IMG/VR virus record: IMGVR_UViG_3300009136_000012
Location: 1-44,042 of that record
Strand: one strand, 5' to 3'
DNA length: 44,042 nucleotides
Origin: a virus
Positions 7,151 to 44,042 of the stretch are shown piece by piece; the first letter of the stretch is position 1, and every line of letters begins with the position of its first letter. The notes beneath the pieces were generated by a model. It did no database searches. It had not been told where the DNA came from and saw nothing but the letters and a program-made list of their open reading frames with translations. A program made the position numbers and the translations under genes.

Positions 7151-7684
7151 TCAACCTATCAGTGAGTCACGATCAATTAATCGAACAAAACACGGCATAT
7201 TTTCAGGTCGAAAAATGACGAACATTGAGCCTTTTGTATTGCCAGCGACCGGTTTGTTAGTTGATGGGTGAATAAAGGTTAGACGACCGCCCGTTATGAC
7301 GCGTAGTTCAGATATTTCGGAGATAGGGAGCCATTGAGCGTCGAGCGTTGCGGGCACTAGCAAAACGCTTGTTAAGCCTTTTTCTTGTTGCTCAATAGCT
7401 TTGTTCATGAATGGTTTGATAAGACCGCGACCGTATGGCGGATTGATCCAAACCGTCGGCCAATAATCTAGATCGCGGTAATAACTATCGATATATTCAG
7501 ACCAATCAACATTCAGCGCGTCTTGCTCTTTAGTCAGATAAAGATCACATTTTCTATTGTTATGATTTGCCGCGGCATCTAATGAAAACCTAAATTCTTT
7601 GTTCATGGTGTCAAAAATGCGTTGATCAGTACTCCAAGCATTTTTATCGTCATCCGATAGATCACTTGTGATTATATCGCTCAT
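7151..7684 (-). CDS. Dam-type DNA N6-adenine methyltransferase (PF05869-like)
   Basis: The protein has 177 residues from the ATG at 7684. It shows AWSTDQRIFDTMNKEF (17-31), SLDAAAN (34-40, cofactor-binding region) and the catalytic NPPYG (81-85). The family methylates adenine, commonly in GATC. The start is fixed by an ATGA overlap with a small upstream gene and by GGAG 12 nt before; a longer frame from 7717 lacks a ribosome site. GATC is enriched in this genome, and a GATC-rich candidate origin lies about 500 bp away, so a role in replication timing or protection from restriction is plausible. Confidence 0.85.
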   Translation of the reverse strand: MSDIITSDLSDDDKNAWSTDQRIFDTMNKEFRFSLDAAANHNNRKCDLYLTKEQDALNVDWSEYIDSYYRDLDYWPTVWINPPYGRGLIKPFMNKAIEQQEKGLTSVLLVPATLDAQWLPISEISELRVITGGRLTFIHPSTNKPVAGNTKGSMFVIFRPENMPCFVRLIDRDSLIG

Positions 7685-7839
7685 AATGATTTGGTTCTCC
7701 GATCGAATTCGGTGCATTTAACCAGCGTGATGAATGTTGAATATGATCCCACCTTTTTCATTGATTTGAAATCATAGTCGCATTTTTCGCGGTGTCGTTT
7801 ACAGCGAGTGCACATCCATTGATGCGGCCGGTATCTCAA
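7681..7839 (-). CDS. Small zinc-finger-like protein, unknown
   Basis: The frame ends in a TGA that overlaps the methylase ATG as ATGA. It reads back to a TTG at 7839 (52 residues), 2 nt after the previous stop; an internal ATG at 7815 would give 44 residues. It holds WMCTRCKRHREKCDYDF, a CxxC plus further Cys/His pattern. The coupling on both sides argues that it is translated. The function is unknown. Confidence 0.5.
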   Translation of the reverse strand: MRYRPHQWMCTRCKRHREKCDYDFKSMKKVGSYSTFITLVKCTEFDRRTKSL

Positions 7840-7841
7840 TT

Positions 7842-8060
7842 TTAATGTAGACTAACCTCTTCAATTTCATTTTCACTGTTTAAAATTTCTAACAATGTTT
7901 GGTATAAGTATTTTTCACCTAGATTTTCTCTGATTGCTGAAATCGCGCCGAAAGTTAGTAGCTGCATATATTCGATATATTCTTGCTTTTCCATTGATAG
8001 TACGTTTTTACAATTGAACGCACTATTCAATGCGGTTTGTTGTTTTTCAGTGACTTTCAT
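7842..8060 (-). CDS. Small helical protein, unknown
   Basis: The protein has 72 residues, all-helical in appearance, with no recognised motif. It is the first gene leftwards of the ~830-bp non-coding region and leads into the zinc peptide and the methylase. A weak promoter (CTGTCA, 17 bp, TAGTAT) may lie about 50 bp upstream. The function is unknown. Confidence 0.55.
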   Translation of the reverse strand: MKVTEKQQTALNSAFNCKNVLSMEKQEYIEYMQLLTFGAISAIRENLGEKYLYQTLLEILNSENEIEEVSLH

Positions 8061-8164
8061 TTTAATTCATCCAAAAATTAAGTATGTTCCAATACTATCA
8101 ATTCTCGAAAAATATGACAGTTGATTTATATGACTGCACTCCATTTAACATTTATTTTTTAATG

Positions 8165-8240
8165 GATCTTATATATAAAGATCTAAAGATCTTATATAGA
8201 TCTGAAAATAATATATAGATCTTTAGATCTATATATGGTC
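8165..8240. repeat. AT-rich AGATCT inverted cluster
   Basis: AGATCT occurs at 8179, 8187, 8198, 8217 and 8225, plus a GGATCT at 8164-8169. The outer pairs AGATCTAAAGATCT (8179-8192) and AGATCTTTAGATCT (8217-8230) are exact inverted copies, flanked by alternating AT. Six GATC sites fall in about 66 bp, many times the background. It is a candidate DNA-unwinding and methylation-sensing element. Confidence 0.8.
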
Positions 8241-8372
8241 TTTATGATCAGCTTGGCAGTGACGGAGGCATATGCTAGCCCTACCCAAATTTTTTGAAAA
8301 ATTCGGGCATTACCAAACTTCCAGCTCGTATAGCGAGTCTGACACGAAGCGCCACTTGTTTTTGTCTTCTGT

Positions 8373-8411
8373 CGATAACGTCAAGTGATCTTATAAAAGC
8401 CTACGTTATCG
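8373..8411. repeat. 9-bp inverted repeat in the non-coding region
   Basis: CGATAACGT (8373-8381) and ACGTTATCG (8403-8411) are perfect inverted arms around a 21-nt spacer that contains GATC. It could be a protein-binding site or an RNA hairpin. No U-tract follows on either strand, so a terminator is unlikely. Confidence 0.6.
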
Positions 8412-8890
8412 GTTAGGTACATTTAAACCCGCGTGTGAACATTCGCTACACCGTTAATCACGCTTGCTGATACGCACTGTCTCGTCGGCGCATCAAACTC
8501 GTTACTGTTTCGTTTTATCGTTAAATAAAAACCGGATTTAACCCGTTAGAACTTTATATGCGCGCGCAGGATTACCTACTGAATAGCATATAAATTATTT
8601 TTAAACGCGGCTAAGCCGCAATAGATTTAGTGGTGCGTGATGATTATCCGGTTCGCTTTTTAATTCGCGCGGGTAGTGATTTGATGGTTTTGAATTTAAC
8701 TTTTTTGAATGCTCGATCGTTCGGCTTGAAATTGTACAAGATACAGCCCCCTTTCATTTTTTTTGGAATTTCGTTGTAACTTCACGTTTAACTTTTTTCC
8801 GTCGATTAACGCGTAAATCAGATAGCACTGTACGTCAATCGAACGTTTAATCTAACATATGATTTTAATTGATGTATCTTTTTTGTGCTG

Positions 8891-9115
8891 TTATCTCAAA
8901 ATATTTAGTCTGCTTTGTGCTTTGAGGTTTTTATCGAATGTTTTTAAATCACTACCTTTGAGAATAATATCAACTATTCGGCCTTGCGATAGTTCAGGGT
9001 GAATTCTTTGCAACATATCGATAAATTCACGCGATTCAAAGCTTATTTTTGTTGAAAAATTAACGCGTCGATCAGCGTCTGGCAAGCGAGGTCGCCCCAT
9101 TTTGCGCTCATACAT
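8891..9115 (-). CDS. Ribbon-helix-helix DNA-binding protein
   Basis: The 74-residue protein has a basic arm MYERKMGRPRLPDADRR, then a short strand (VNFSTKIS) and two helices (ESREFIDMLQRIHPEL and QGRIVDIILKG), the RHH (Arc/CopG) layout. RHH dimers bind short direct repeats. Its promoter lies at 9149-9178, and an 8-bp iteron cluster (9256-9319) lies about 100 bp further upstream, so autoregulation or copy control is possible. GGGGACTTATA precedes the ATG. Confidence 0.72.
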   Translation of the reverse strand: MYERKMGRPRLPDADRRVNFSTKISFESREFIDMLQRIHPELSQGRIVDIILKGSDLKTFDKNLKAQSRLNILR

Positions 9116-9148
9116 TATAAGTCCCCATATTAATTAAGATCAGGCTTG

Positions 9149-9178
9149 AGCATACACTAAACGCATGAGCAATATCAA
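9149..9178 (-). promoter_or_regulatory. Promoter for the RHH gene
   Basis: On the minus strand: TTGATA (9173-9178), an 18-bp spacer, TATGCT (9149-9154). The predicted leader to the ATG at 9115 is about 27 nt. The spacer contains GCGTTTAG, similar to the half-site of the repeated early promoters, so both might answer to one regulator. Confidence 0.6.
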
Positions 9179-9255
9179 GTGATTTACCGTACTTTCTGAC
9201 AATGTGGCGTTAAACACCTAATTACAAGGGTTTTATCCGTATATTGTGAGGTAAA

Positions 9256-9319
9256 ATATTATGATTATAGGATTCTACGATGCTATCATGGCATGATGCT
9301 AGCATGGCATGATGCTATG
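9256..9319 (-). repeat. 8-bp iteron cluster B
   Basis: Read on the minus strand from 9319, contiguous 8-mers run CATAGCAT, CATGCCAT, GCTAGCAT, CATGCCAT, GATAGCAT, then weaker CGTAGAAT, CCTATAAT, CATAATAT. They share the CAT(N)3AT pattern and 8-bp phase of the array before parA, in opposite orientation. It is a likely binding site of an RHH protein (the local one or the ParG-like one) and may serve in replication, partition or repression. Confidence 0.75.
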
Positions 9320-9356
9320 ATATATTGTGCTTAAATCGATTTATGATACTATAGGC

Positions 9357-9384
9357 GCGCAGTTGGCGTCATATCCAATTGCGC
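9357..9384. repeat. Imperfect inverted repeat (hairpin)
   Basis: GCGCAGTTGG (9357-9366) and CCAATTGCGC (9375-9384) pair in nine of ten positions around an 8-nt loop. It lies in the gap between the small RHH-like gene at 9439 and the iteron cluster. No U-run is adjacent; the function is unknown. The rest of 9320-9438 shows nothing further that I can interpret. Confidence 0.5.
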
Positions 9385-9438
9385 TTAAGGATAGCCTTGA
9401 GACTCTTTAATCGTTGAGCTTAATGGGTTTCGAGGCTT

Positions 9439-9618
9439 TTAAATGCTATTTTTAGCGTCAAATTCGCATTTATCGAGATAAAATTCTAGTGCTTCGCGCG
9501 TAAATTGCTCAAAATTTGGATGGATCCTTTCAATACTTTCAACGATAGATAAATCAATAGAGATACATTTAACAATAGTCGATTCTTTGTTATAACGTTT
9601 ATTTGCAAATTTGCTCAT
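9439..9618 (-). CDS. Small RHH-like protein (59 aa)
   Basis: The frame from ATG 9618 to TAA 9439-9441 encodes 59 residues. STIVKCISIDLSIVESIERI followed by HPNFEQFTREALEFYL fits strand-helix-helix, and the HP turn matches HPEL in the RHH protein at 8891. The two may be distant paralogues. It begins just past the U-tract of the tail-operon terminator, so it needs read-through or its own promoter. GCGAG lies 8 nt before the ATG. Confidence 0.6.
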   Translation of the reverse strand: MSKFANKRYNKESTIVKCISIDLSIVESIERIHPNFEQFTREALEFYLDKCEFDAKNSI

Positions 9619-9635
9619 TTAAAATACTCGCTTAT

Positions 9636-9659
9636 AAAAAAGCCCGCAGGAGAACGGGC
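9636..9659 (-). terminator. Intrinsic terminator of the tail operon
   Basis: On the minus strand, GCCCGTTCTCCTGCGGGC forms a hairpin with a 5-bp GC stem followed at once by TTTTTT. It stands about 30 bp after the stop of the last tail gene. This is a textbook rho-independent terminator and closes the structural transcript. Confidence 0.92.
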
Positions 9660-9690
9660 AATTAATATCATCAGGCCAATTTTTATTATT

Positions 9691-10155
9691 TTAAATCGGC
9701 ACACCTTGCAAAATTCTAGTTAGATCAGATTCAGTAATAAATCCCTCATCTCTAAAATGAATTAACTCTGTCAATATATCAGGGATATTAATCTGATTAT
9801 TCGATGCGTGATCAATTGTCGATTCTAAAAAGAATAATGCAATAGAATCGGCGTTTGCGCTTTGATCATGAGCCGCTTTAAATATTGCGAGATATCCGAC
9901 ATCCTCAATTAATTCTAATAATTCGCCGGTTGTTACTAACGTTCGAAAATTAACAGGCGGCGGAAAATATTCAGGCGTTGTGGTAATTTCCCAGCTATCA
10001 GAACTTTTGATATAAAGCGCGAATTCTTGAGGCGGTCCTGCTGATAATATTGGCGGCTCTGTTTCAGTTGATCGCGATGGTTTATTTGGCGGCCCTGTAT
10101 TAACAAAATCACCATCCCAATATAATTTTGATGTGTACGTATAATATCTAGCCAT
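9691..10155 (-). CDS. Fibre-associated or fibre-assembly protein, unknown
   Basis: The protein has 154 residues: a Pro- and Thr-rich first half (about 20-75) and a helical, acidic C-terminal half (80-150). It is the last structural gene and overlaps the fibre gene by one base (TAATG). Position and composition resemble tail-fibre assembly chaperones or short fibre-tip proteins, but no motif proves it. Confidence 0.55.
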   Translation of the reverse strand: MARYYTYTSKLYWDGDFVNTGPPNKPSRSTETEPPILSAGPPQEFALYIKSSDSWEITTTPEYFPPPVNFRTLVTTGELLELIEDVGYLAIFKAAHDQSANADSIALFFLESTIDHASNNQINIPDILTELIHFRDEGFITESDLTRILQGVPI

Positions 10156-34097: not shown

Positions 34098-34503
34098 TCT
34101 CTTTGATAGCGTCCAAGTAATGTTGGGATGCTTCTTTGGGTGTTATTCCGTCAGGGAGTTTAAGATCAATCTTCGTTTCGTGAACAAGTACGTCAGTTTC
34201 ACGCCATCCCGCCTGAGTTTTTAAGTAGAATATCATCGCGGCTGTATTGCCATCCTTAGCAGATTTTATCAAATTGCCCGCTATTGTTGCGATCGCTTTG
34301 GCTTTTCCATTTTTATAGGCGAAAGAAACGCGTTCGTCTCGATCACGTATTGCTTTAAATGTTACGTGTGAGATACCCAGATAATCAGCTATTTGAGTGG
34401 TATTTAAAACGGCTGATAGTGTTTGAACTTCTTGAACTTGTTTATCAGTTAGCTCTACAGGCGGTCGACCTTCTTTAGGTTTATCTTTATTTAAATCAGG
34501 CAT
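34090..34503 (-). CDS. terS: Terminase small subunit
   Basis: The protein has 137 residues from the ATG at 34503, preferred because AGGTG lies 6 nt before it. Residues 10-60, with GRPPVELTDKQVQEVQTL and TTQIADYLGISHVTFKAI, form the DNA-binding HTH that recognises the packaging site. The following helices assemble the ring. It overlaps the end of the second Mom-like gene by 8 bp and the large terminase by 8 bp. Confidence 0.88.
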   Translation of the reverse strand: MPDLNKDKPKEGRPPVELTDKQVQEVQTLSAVLNTTQIADYLGISHVTFKAIRDRDERVSFAYKNGKAKAIATIAGNLIKSAKDGNTAAMIFYLKTQAGWRETDVLVHETKIDLKLPDGITPKEASQHYLDAIKEND

Positions 34504-35320
34504 CATTATCACCTGTGGTTTGGAGCGTGTTGGTCGGAGTTGCACCGCCGCTTTCTAACTGGTCGTTAGACTCGCCTACTTGAACACGCCTTCTGGACTC
34601 TAAACTAACCTTCTCCCCTTTATACATTCCAGCACCCTTTTTGTCTATATCCGTGAAAGGTAATATAGGAACGGTCAACTTAGTTTTATAAGATTTATCT
34701 ATAAAATAAATGTATTTTAATTGAAAGCCGATTGTTTTTTTCCAAGTTTTCCATTCTTTAACAATCATCAGGTGATGGGCTTGAATTGTATGAACCACCT
34801 CATTTGTTTTTGGATTAATCCTTAAGGCTTCACTTTCTCTAATACCAACTAAATAGAACCCACTCGCTCTGTAAATGGTTCCGTCACCGCATTGCGTTCC
34901 ATCACTGAAGCTAATCACCCATTTTATCTGTGGATAACTTTTGCGTATTAATCTCATACAGACGCCAATCGCTCTTGATTCGCTAAACTTTGGCAATACG
35001 TCAGTAAATGCCATTCGATTTAATTCTATAAAATCATTAAATAGCGTTCCAGAAACTAAGTTTACAGTTCCTTTCTTGTTTATGCTCGGTCCGAATTGTA
35101 AGACACCTTCAAGCTTATTATTTAGAAAGACACCGAAGTGAAGTTGACTATTGGGCACAACTTTACCGCTATAATGGGTTCGCTTGACAAAGGCGTTAGC
35201 TGTGCGTGAGTTGATAGGCTTAATGAATAGGTCTTTAGCTGTCGGATTGGTGGAAGCGTCAGGGATCAAACCTGATAAAGCGCTCAACTCGCCGCCCCCA
35301 TATTTTCGTCGTCTAGCCAT
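34496..35320 (-). CDS. Mom-like DNA hypermodification acyltransferase (copy 2)
   Basis: The 274-residue protein has family landmarks RTHYSGKVVPNSQLHFGVFL (47-66, near-terminal HY and FGVF), ELNRMAF (99-105) and SDGTQCGDGTIYRASGF (139-155). This arrangement is characteristic of Mom-related GNAT-fold proteins, which attach a carbamoylmethyl-type group to adenine N6 in Mu. The C-terminal 60 residues are basic and low in complexity. It is coupled to another Mom-like gene upstream and to terS downstream, so DNA could be modified at or just before packaging. The exact base product is unknown. Confidence 0.82.
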   Translation of the reverse strand: MARRRKYGGGELSALSGLIPDASTNPTAKDLFIKPINSRTANAFVKRTHYSGKVVPNSQLHFGVFLNNKLEGVLQFGPSINKKGTVNLVSGTLFNDFIELNRMAFTDVLPKFSESRAIGVCMRLIRKSYPQIKWVISFSDGTQCGDGTIYRASGFYLVGIRESEALRINPKTNEVVHTIQAHHLMIVKEWKTWKKTIGFQLKYIYFIDKSYKTKLTVPILPFTDIDKKGAGMYKGEKVSLESRRRVQVGESNDQLESGGATPTNTLQTTGDNDA

Positions 35321-36000
35321 TCTTGATTGAGCCGGTATTTTGCGCTTTCTTTTGGATAAGGCAAAGATATTTTTTCTAATCGCTTTCTAATCTTTTTGCT
35401 GATCGGATAAGCGTAATTGTATCTCCAACTTTTTAGGATCTTGCCTTGACCAAATAATTCCTCTCCAATTTCCTGTTTTGTTTTGCCTTTGGCTGATATG
35501 CGGCCAAACCTCAAAGCGCCTGATATGTTTTTATAACTCCCATCATTGCACAAGTAGAAATCATTGCAGGGTTCACGGCCGAAATATGCCCATGCCGATG
35601 ACTGATAAACGAATCCGCAGTCATTTTTACATCCACCCGCATGAGTGAACACCAATAAAACACCCATAATTTTTATCTGTTTCATTACTAATGAAAGAAC
35701 GTAGCTTTCAACATTGTGACCCAAATCGTCAGAAATCCACATTCGAACCATTTCAAGAAAGCGATTTTTATCCAAATGTAAGCCGGTATGTTTTAGGATT
35801 TTTTGTTTCGTTGTCGCAGCATATCCGAACGATAAAACTCCGAGGCATTTTTTCTGATAAAACACTCCAAAGTTAACAGCCGCTCCACTGGGGAACGTCT
35901 TCATATAATGATTTTCAATAATTAGCCTTTTTGCATAATGTGTCTTGATTGGTCTAACTGTCACACCTTTTAATTGTGGATTACTGCTTTTGTTAATCAT
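35284..36000 (-). CDS. Mom-like DNA hypermodification acyltransferase (copy 1)
   Basis: The 238-residue protein shows the same order of landmarks as the next gene: ENHYMKTFPSGAAVNFGVFY (29-48), LGVLSFG, EMVRMWISDD (83-92) and HAGGCKNDCGFVYQSSAW (120-137). The sequences have diverged strongly, so they are old paralogues with possibly different substrates or a heteromeric role. Extra Cys residues (C124, C128, C145, C151) could bind metal. It overlaps the ParB-like gene by 8 bp and copy 2 by 37 bp. Confidence 0.76.
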   Translation of the reverse strand: MINKSSNPQLKGVTVRPIKTHYAKRLIIENHYMKTFPSGAAVNFGVFYQKKCLGVLSFGYAATTKQKILKHTGLHLDKNRFLEMVRMWISDDLGHNVESYVLSLVMKQIKIMGVLLVFTHAGGCKNDCGFVYQSSAWAYFGREPCNDFYLCNDGSYKNISGALRFGRISAKGKTKQEIGEELFGQGKILKSWRYNYAYPISKKIRKRLEKISLPYPKESAKYRLNQEWLDDENMGAAS

Positions 36001-36613
36001 CCAAAGCTCCAGACAGCCATTTTTCGCATATATAAGTCAAGGCATTGCCATTTGAGTTATCGTTTAACCCTGTGTCAATTAGCGGATTTGTCCTCGCCTT
36101 GGTCATAGCGTCCTCTATAATTTGGGCTTGTTCGTCATGTAATGTGAATGTTTTCTGCTGAAAAGGATTACGGTCACCATCTGGTAGATCGGGCAATTCT
36201 GCGTCTATATCTAAAAGCTTTTGTATAACGTCGTCTTCAAAGCCCAATAAATCTAAATCAAAATTCATCTCCTGCAATGTTTCTATTTCTAATCGAAGTG
36301 AATCAATATCCCAACCAGCATTAAGGGCTAATTGATTATCAGCGATAATATAAGCTTTTTTTTGAGATTCGGTTAAACCCTCTAATATGATACAAGGCAC
36401 ATCATTGATATTTAATTTTTTAGCGGCTTGAATTCGACCATGACCGGCTATTATGCCGCCTTGCTCGTCGATTAATATAGGATTCGTGAAGCCGAATTCT
36501 TTAATAGAGCTGGCTATTTGATTGATCTGATCGTCGCTATGCGTTCTTGAATTATTAACATAGGGGATTAAATCATTGATTGATCTTGTCTGATATTCGT
36601 AATTTTTATCCAT
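35993..36613 (-). CDS. ParB/Srx N-terminal-like domain protein of the modification operon
   Basis: The protein has 206 residues. NDLIPYVNNSRTHSDDQINQ, IKEFGFTNPILIDEQGGI and GHGRIQAAKKL (57-67) are ParB-like nuclease-domain motifs (GHxR loop), followed by VPCIILEGLTESQKKAYIIA and DNQLALNAGWD, the version common in phages beside DNA methylases and terminases. It lacks the HTH and dimer domain of true chromosome ParB. Coupling to two Mom-like genes suggests a role in DNA or nucleotide handling for modification. Confidence 0.85.
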   Translation of the reverse strand: MDKNYEYQTRSINDLIPYVNNSRTHSDDQINQIASSIKEFGFTNPILIDEQGGIIAGHGRIQAAKKLNINDVPCIILEGLTESQKKAYIIADNQLALNAGWDIDSLRLEIETLQEMNFDLDLLGFEDDVIQKLLDIDAELPDLPDGDRNPFQQKTFTLHDEQAQIIEDAMTKARTNPLIDTGLNDNSNGNALTYICEKWLSGALDD

Positions 36614-42000: not shown

Positions 42001-42074
42001 CGCATTATTATAAAATAACCGCATAAAAACAAGCGTTTTTCGGTATAATTCTCAGGTTTGCCAAGACCTAGCGT

Positions 42075-42138
42075 CATATTATCATATTATCATAGCATCA
42101 TAGCATCATATCATCATATCATCATACGATCATATCGT
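42075..42138 (+). repeat. Eight tandem 8-bp iterons upstream of parA (array A)
   Basis: Contiguous 8-mers: CATATTAT twice, CATAGCAT twice, CATATCAT twice, then CATACGAT and CATATCGT. The consensus is CATANNAT in exact 8-bp phase, with the variable bases changing in pairs. The array lies just before TACAAT (42141-42146) and the parA ribosome site. It fits a met-box or omega-type target on which RHH dimers line up, serving as operator and probably as parS-like centromere. Confidence 0.9.
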
Positions 42139-42183: not shown

Positions 42184-42855
42184 ATGAAAATCGTATCACT
42201 GGCAAATCTGAAAGGCGGATCGGGAAAAAGCACTCACGCAATCAATATAGCTGACGGGTTGGGATTGAGAGGGTTAAGGGTCGTTTTATGCGATTTGGAC
42301 GAAGATCAAGAAACAGTCATTGACTGGTCTGAAATCAATGATAATCGTTCGTTCGATATTAAATTAGTTGATCCAGAAAAATTAGGTAATTTTATCGATA
42401 GAAATAAAAACGATTACGATTTTGCAATTTTAGATTGCCCCCCTGCCGCAAACCGAGCGGCGGCTTACGTCGTTAGATATTCAGATCTCGTGATAATGCC
42501 TGTTATGCCGAGTATGGTTGAAGTTTGGGCGTTGCGTCGTCTAAACGATCTAATATTAGATAGACAAGTTATAACCGACGGTTTACCAATTGCGAGAATC
42601 ATGTTGTCTCGATGTCGAAAAAGAACAAAACTATTGCCAAAAGTTATTAACGCATTAAATGATCCTGAGTTGCAATTACCTAGCGTTATGAATAGCGGTA
42701 CAACATTTCGTCAGTCTTACATTCAAACAATTTCAGATGGCGAAACGGTTTATATTAATGATCGTAAAGAATACGGCAATGATATAACGGTTTGCATCGA
42801 ACAAATCGAAGCTATCGTTTCAGAAATATTAGAAATATCAGGTGATCAATCATGA
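42184..42855 (+). CDS. parA: ParA partition ATPase (small, ParF-like)
   Basis: The protein has 223 residues from the ATG at 42184, which follows GGGGATAAC; an earlier in-frame ATG would translate the iterons and is rejected. It has a deviant Walker A LKGGSGKST (9-17), VVLCDLDEDQ (33-42) and Walker B FAILDCPPAA (80-89). There is no N-terminal HTH, so it is a type Ib ParA. It moves plasmid-like genomes over the nucleoid together with an RHH centromere-binding protein encoded 250 bp downstream. It is the start of the only rightward operon. Confidence 0.92.
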   Translation: MKIVSLANLKGGSGKSTHAINIADGLGLRGLRVVLCDLDEDQETVIDWSEINDNRSFDIKLVDPEKLGNFIDRNKNDYDFAILDCPPAANRAAAYVVRYSDLVIMPVMPSMVEVWALRRLNDLILDRQVITDGLPIARIMLSRCRKRTKLLPKVINALNDPELQLPSVMNSGTTFRQSYIQTISDGETVYINDRKEYGNDITVCIEQIEAIVSEILEISGDQS

Positions 42856-43136
42856 AATTAAAAGAAGCGAAATTGATCTGTCAATTAAATGCGATCATTG
42901 AATTACATAAATCTGCGGCAAAAGATCGAGACGCAATTATTAAAGAGCTACAAGAATCAATTGCTATTTTTAAAAAGCAGGCAGTTTTACAAGCTGAAAT
43001 GATTGACGGATTGAAGAAAAACCGCGATCACTTTGAAAAAATATCCATTAAACAAGATGTTTTACTGCAAGATCAAACAAAATTTATAGACTATTTAAAG
43101 GAAAAATACGATGAAAATACCAGCACGTCGCACTAG
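42852..43136 (+). CDS. Coiled-coil protein between parA and the RHH gene
   Basis: The 94-residue protein is almost entirely heptad helix (about 15-90). It overlaps parA by ATGA and the RHH gene by 26 bp, so all three are co-translated. It could be a third partition component or a spacer protein. I know of no standard type Ib cassette with such a gene in the middle. Confidence 0.6.
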   Translation: MKLKEAKLICQLNAIIELHKSAAKDRDAIIKELQESIAIFKKQAVLQAEMIDGLKKNRDHFEKISIKQDVLLQDQTKFIDYLKEKYDENTSTSH

Positions 43137-43374
43137 TCGACAATCTCGCGAGGCTCGAAAGGTTTTAGACGATGAAAATCTAGGTCAATTATCAATTAGA
43201 CTCGATAAGAGTCTAAGACACCAATTTTCATTATCAGTTAATTTTCAGCAAACAAGCATGAACCAAGCTTTAATTAATTTTATAAAGAAATATGTCGGTG
43301 AGCATTATAATTCGGTTCACAAAGGCTGTTCGAATTTAGAGAAACATGCGATACGGAGAGATCGGAATAAATAG
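43111..43374 (+). CDS. ParG-like RHH centromere-binding protein
   Basis: The 87-residue protein has a mobile basic N-tail (ARRTSRQSREARK) that recalls the arginine-bearing tail by which ParG stimulates ParF. Then come the strand LGQLSIRLD and helices SLRHQFSLSVNF and TSMNQALINFIKKYV, an RHH core. It probably binds the 8-bp iterons at 42075 (and perhaps 9256), links them to ParA and represses the operon. Confidence 0.78.
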   Translation: MKIPARRTSRQSREARKVLDDENLGQLSIRLDKSLRHQFSLSVNFQQTSMNQALINFIKKYVGEHYNSVHKGCSNLEKHAIRRDRNK

Positions 43375-43904: not shown

Positions 43905-44042
43905 TTTTTTTCACAAAGCGGCTTTGTAGTGATATGACGCAAATAATTATCTAAAATTCCAAGCGAGATCATAAAAATACCGAAGGAGAATCCAGTCATT
44001 GAATTTTCAAAATAGCCCGCGTTCGCGCTGATCAGTGAGACT
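43901..44042 (-). CDS. Small lysis membrane protein, second partial copy at the joint
   Basis: This is the 3' part of the 73-residue gene described at 1-195, seen again because the window ends overlap. It stops at TGA 43901-43903, in an ATGA overlap with the i-spanin start. It is cut by the end of the window and is not a second gene. Confidence 0.8.
   Translation of the reverse strand, partial: VSLISANAGYFENSMTGFSFGIFMISLGILDNYLRHITTKPLCEKK
43928..44042. repeat. Terminal direct repeat, right copy (circle joint)
   Basis: This copy is identical to 1-115 except T at 43969 in place of C at 42. See the left copy: it marks the circular joint of the contig. Confidence 0.93.

Follow-up and report, generated by a model that had tools for sequence, protein, structure and literature searches.

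The Distal Array and Its Surroundings

At positions 9256-9319 of the window, by which we mean the whole stretch of DNA analyzed here, a virus record of 44,042 bp, eight units of 8 bp follow one another in phase on the minus strand, the first five of them strong. Read from 9319 to 9256, the units are CATAGCAT CATGCCAT GCTAGCAT CATGCCAT GATAGCAT CGTAGAAT CCTATAAT CATAATAT, and their core was described by TRF as 2.5 copies of a 16-mer. This distal array has the late block (from 9691 upward) on one side and the early block (from 8060 downward) on the other, and is flanked by two ORFs on the same strand that resemble ribbon-helix-helix (RHH) proteins, 8891-9115 downstream and 9439-9618 on its other side. 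A TATAAT, a candidate -10 element (9264-9269, minus strand), was read from the sequence inside the seventh unit; a promoter scan around the array performed no better than on shuffled sequence.

The 74-amino-acid product of 8891-9115 was recognized as RHH-like from its sequence pattern. No family match was found for it in Pfam, PHROG, or NCBIfam, and tblastn against phages and plasmids gave no matches. Its single-sequence model places helices after an extended stretch with low confidence (pLDDT 58); this model and that of the RHH protein encoded at 43111 (see below) were too poor to serve in fold searches. A PDB sequence search returned no hit. The ORF at 9439-9618 (59 amino acids), absent from the first-pass annotation of this DNA, has no family match; an RIHP stretch is common to its product and the 8891 protein. 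A terminator-like hairpin directly precedes it, so its expression is uncertain. We rejected the 8891 protein as a member of a toxin-antitoxin pair, because its gene is followed by 830 bp free of genes.

No non-coding stretch of the genome is longer than these 830 bp (8061-8890). They fold better than shuffled sequence on both strands (z of -4.8 and -3.7, 20 shuffles each) and contain GATC at its highest density in the genome, with 7 copies in 100 bp where the average is 0.74; this cluster lies inside long inverted repeats at 8170-8244. Nothing credible was returned by Rfam over 7500-10000. The stretch may be a prophage origin or the leader (leader RNA) of the early operon.

The two ends of the window, 1-115 and 43928-44042, repeat each other over 115 bp with one mismatch, as would fit a genome that is circular or terminally redundant. 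A single mismatch is unusual for a simple assembly overlap, and strain variation may lie behind it. The window encodes RecE/RecT, SSB, NinB, terminase, portal, and tape measure proteins, as well as two Mom-like proteins and a ParB_N protein. The Mom-like DNA modification proteins are neighbors within 34496-36613, next to the ParB_N-domain protein, which is of the kind associated with phage nucleases and methyltransferases. Among the proteins searched, which were a part of the ORFs and included several without a match, no integrase, protelomerase, RepA, or CI-like repressor was recognized. The presence of a ParA without a recognized integrase suggests that the phage is a plasmid prophage.

The Partition Operon

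The par operon and its array lie on the plus strand. The parA gene (42184-42855) encodes a small ParA of type Ib of 223 amino acids with matches to Pfam AAA_31/CbiA, to the PHROG ParA-like family (1.5e-31), and to the NCBIfam ParA family partition ATPase NF041546 (3.6e-43; 147.5 bits, under the 180-bit cut-off). As in other proteins of this type, the ATPase is small and has no N-terminal HTH; a genome scan with a ParA alignment revealed no closer ParA. It is followed by a coiled-coil-like ORF of 94 amino acids with a weak coiled-coil Pfam match (42852-43136), and by the gene of an 87-amino-acid RHH protein (43111-43374), which its sequence pattern, its place downstream of parA, and a ParG-type HMM point to as the presumed centromere-binding protein. 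This HMM, built from the proteins of six parA operons, ranked the 43111 protein first of the 471 ORFs of the window with a weak E-value of 0.025, and favored it alone among the three RHH-like proteins. The ParG-like assignment is presumed from this value and the gene order; tblastn of the protein against phages gave no matches.

The parA-proximal array (42074-42137) consists of eight units of the form TCATNNNN, namely TCATATTA, TCATAGCA, and TCATATCA twice each and TCATACGA and TCATATCG once each, and ends 46 bp before the ATG of parA, where it presumably serves as centromere and operator of the operon. A short-repeat array 5' of parA is typical of type Ib systems, and relatives show the same place and period. 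In the six plasmid and phage parA operons that we compared, a small gene, mostly ParG-like, follows parA in each, and an 8-bp-periodic tract stands just before parA, each with a motif of its own, e.g., ACTCATTT or TGTACATT. Across the upstream regions of 77 viral parA loci, which include many close relatives, so that the counts are not independent, 8 bp was the best lag in 46 and the lag-8 score was at least 20 in 38; Soj-type chromosomal controls taken from genomes gave 0 of 33. By its sequence and position, the parA array is a member of the known type Ib class of ParA plus RHH centromere/operator sites.

Two phages compared over their whole length, G002 (L218-L219) and G003 (L215-L217), share structural genes with the window at roughly 30-75% identity but have no match to its par module, which gives the par region the look of a mosaic module. 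RecE, ParA, and the 8891 protein, used as single-protein queries against viral contigs, retrieved no relatives, and searches of phages, plasmids, and viral contigs yielded no relative in which the par module and the 8891 region occur together.

Two Arrays of One Motif Family

The first-pass annotation had described the distal array as a second cluster of the 8-bp family found near parA, and phase, weight matrix, and blastn all bear this out. The periodicity of the distal cluster on its own is moderate: its lag-8 identity is 26/40, which about 4 of 300 shuffles reach, while its lag-16 identity of 30/40 was reached by none of the 300, the shuffle maximum being 26. A weight matrix trained on the parA array (42074-42137) alone scored the distal cluster at 33.9, second in the window; the next site scored 1.1 and the best of 300 shuffles 13.8. 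Across other viral and bacterial loci amounting to 4.02 Mb, the same matrix found no site scoring at least 25; loci picked by a motif pattern scan were omitted from this background, since the motif itself had been the basis of their selection. The genome-wide motif scan that had been proposed as a check therefore did not turn up many equal clusters arising by chance, as, apart from the parA array itself, neither the window nor the background contained an equal. With blastn, the distal region recovered the parA array from the window (E = 1.5e-4). In a swap test, the window's own parA matrix reached a z of 13.1 on the distal cluster, whereas the matrices of 14 other parA loci reached at most 3.3.

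As had been claimed, one unit, CATAGCAT, is shared exactly by the two arrays. In the register TCAT plus four, TCAT is kept in 8 of 8 units of the parA array and in 4 of 8 distal units. The distance of about 11 kb across the joint also held, the gap being about 11.05 kb if the molecule is circular. The opposite orientation of the two arrays applies relative to the plus strand; relative to the gene that follows, parA in one case and the 8891 RHH gene in the other, both read alike. The term iteron, taken as a replication-initiator site, found no support; no RepA-like gene was recognized among the proteins searched, though an initiator of an unfamiliar kind is conceivable. Together, these comparisons of sequence support the view that the two clusters belong to one motif family and are not a product of chance.

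Second Arrays in Other ParA/RHH Replicons

When the parA-array matrix of each locus was run over the remainder of the same locus, a further array of the locus's own motif was found in many parA loci, either flanking parAB or kilobases away and often by repA. The second array lies at parB in L111, L112, L050, and L116, and kilobases away in L106 and L079, in the latter at the start of a 1304-amino-acid ORF. Where motifs differ, the match of the second array is specific to the motif of its own genome, as seen in the swap test for the window, for L111 (8.5 with its own matrix versus 2.5 with foreign ones), and for L050 (7.0 versus 3.9). L116 and L082 are exceptions, scoring higher with the matrix of another locus than with their own, and the loci of the TGTAC class match one another's matrices. 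L044 is uninformative here, because this plasmid record holds the parA region twice.

The telomere phages HAP-1, VP882, MAR, and VHML (L127, L128, L129, and L130) each carry five to eight further dispersed, 8-bp-phased sites of the TGTAC type, counted when they scored above the shuffle maximum. These dispersed arrays match the array upstream of the phage's own parA; nearly all of those in MAR are intergenic, and in all four phages one lies 5' of a repA or primase gene. The dispersed arrays could in part be repressor operators. In a small sample of the literature, we found no description of them.

Comparison with Known Partition Systems

A partition-type array at a distance from the par operon is an arrangement already known in a few plasmids and phages. 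The omega protein of plasmid pSM19035 is a single RHH protein that serves both partition and copy control and binds arrays at the copS, delta, and omega promoters (PMC9499535, PMC5016525). The delta/omega system with parS1-3 resembles the window in combining a small ParA and an RHH protein, the latter presumed in the window, with several short-repeat arrays, at the par genes and elsewhere. In pSM19035 one protein reads all of the arrays, whereas for the window shared binding is what the common motif suggests. The pSM19035 units are of 7 bp (WATCACW) and occur in both orientations, while those of the window are of 8 bp and direct only; and the pSM19035 arrays overlap the delta, omega, and copS promoters, while the distal array of the window adjoins an uncharacterized RHH gene.

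In TP228, parH is built of tetramer boxes that are degenerate and set apart by AT-rich spacers (PMC7308502), and the operator OF lies between parH and the genes (PMC5016525). The parF-parG-parH locus is like the window in having a ParA, a small RHH gene downstream (a presumed one in the window), and degenerate short boxes with spacers upstream of parA. It differs in that in the window parA and the RHH gene are separated by an extra ORF and the boxes are of the TCAT type. In TP228, parH and OF are adjacent, and the portions of the TP228 descriptions compared here contain no distal array.

Phage parABS loci with several parS sites made of 8-bp repeats have been documented: the ParB of RedRock recognizes two parS loci, both with eight 8-bp repeats, Miko and Rachaly have another parS beside repA, and removal of parABS altered the plasmid copy number in several tested mycobacteriophage replicons (PMC7157519). 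RedRock and Miko, with parS-L, parS-R, and the repA-linked parS, share with the window that the system is phage-borne, that each locus has eight direct 8-bp repeats, and that there is more than one locus. Their hosts are different, however, and their loci are close to parABS or repA, while the arrays of the window are some 11 kb apart. The four telomere phages named above have a related ParA (31-36% identity), an 8-bp array upstream of it, and further arrays of the same motif; they differ from the window in the TGTAC-type motif, in having five to eight further sites per genome, and in possessing a protelomerase and a RepA/primase, none of which was recognized among the window proteins searched.

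Possible Role of the Distal Array

We consider it probable, with some reserve, that the distal array is a secondary parS/operator of the phage's own type Ib system and is bound by the 43111 RHH protein. What the DNA presents is the two arrays with a common motif and phase, as expected of a distal parS, together with the parA-RHH operon and the recurrence of same-motif extra arrays in related replicons; from this we infer which protein binds and with what effect. One RHH protein for both sites is the simplest account, because second arrays elsewhere share the motif of their own parA array. The first-pass annotation had proposed such a protein, and the shared motif and the precedents of pSM19035 omega and phage parABS speak for it; the binding itself is what the sequences predict. 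According to this account, the 43111 protein would coat the parA-proximal array in its presumed role of centromere and operator, and would also bind the distal array, probably with lower affinity, since the distal units are more degenerate, so that this site would fill at a higher protein level. The bound distal array could act as an operator for the 8891 RHH gene, the early genes, or the putative origin region, and as an extra attachment point, and would thereby couple maintenance of the plasmid prophage to replication or to early gene control. As a second copy of the repeat that marks par lies there, the vicinity of the early genes is probably marked or controlled by the partition protein as well.

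Against the 43111 protein stands the fact that the gene nearest to the distal cluster is a different RHH gene, for whose operator this is the usual place. The distal array might thus be the autoregulatory operator of the 8891 protein, a divergent paralogue that has kept the DNA specificity of the par RHH protein, with cross-regulation between the two. The start codon of 8891 follows 140 bp downstream of the array, on the same strand, and the array contains the TATAAT; the residues predicted on the DNA-facing strand, compared by eye, are polar and of similar type (Q-S-R in 43111, N-S-K in 8891). The 8891 protein, however, has no recognizable relation to ParG-type proteins and is 12% identical to the 43111 protein in alignment, and a neighboring RHH gene is not needed to account for the array, because the extra arrays of related replicons adjoin many unrelated genes. 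We regard this alternative as rather unlikely, though it deserves to be kept in mind.

Less probable still is that the array is mainly an operator of the early operon, through which an RHH protein would repress the genes for recombination and replication (8060 down to 294) in lysogeny control. The array, the 8891 gene, and the 830-bp stretch are all upstream of the early block on the same strand, and no CI-like repressor was recognized among the proteins searched. In favor of such a role, the N15 Sop partition system is said, in the title of a 2008 paper by Ravin et al. that PMC11652158 cites, to facilitate late gene expression. Nevertheless, the region has no promoter stronger than chance, and 8891 and the early genes are 830 bp apart. 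Although viral contigs do hold 8-bp tandem tracts unrelated to parA, it is highly improbable that the distal array is a chance or neutral microsatellite-like duplication without function, since those tracts are mostly near-perfect repeats, while the distal array is degenerate in sequence yet strict in phase, matches the parA array of its own genome, and has no equal in 4.0 Mb.

A partition site of the 43111 system at 9256-9319 would offer a concrete and testable case of such a site at a distance from the par operon in a phage living as a plasmid. The survey suggests that arrays of a phage's own motif are scattered through the genomes of several ParA/RHH phages, the well-known telomere phages included, with one array at repA. 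If one protein binds all of the arrays, partition, replication, and gene control would share one regulator in these elements. A more speculative and doubtful extension would make the RHH partition protein a genome-wide regulator in such phages, with arrays dispersed over the origin, the early genes, and the late genes that would link segregation with copy number and the lytic switch, and with a second RHH protein competing for the same array in the present genome.

The loci collected by the pattern scan, which looked for four CATNNNAT units, were mostly microsatellites unrelated to parA. On one viral contig (L004, 8150-9000), two distinct 8-bp arrays, one of the TCATAGCA type and one of the CATTGCAT type, lie about 600 bp apart and surround a mostly non-coding stretch, with no parA seen nearby.
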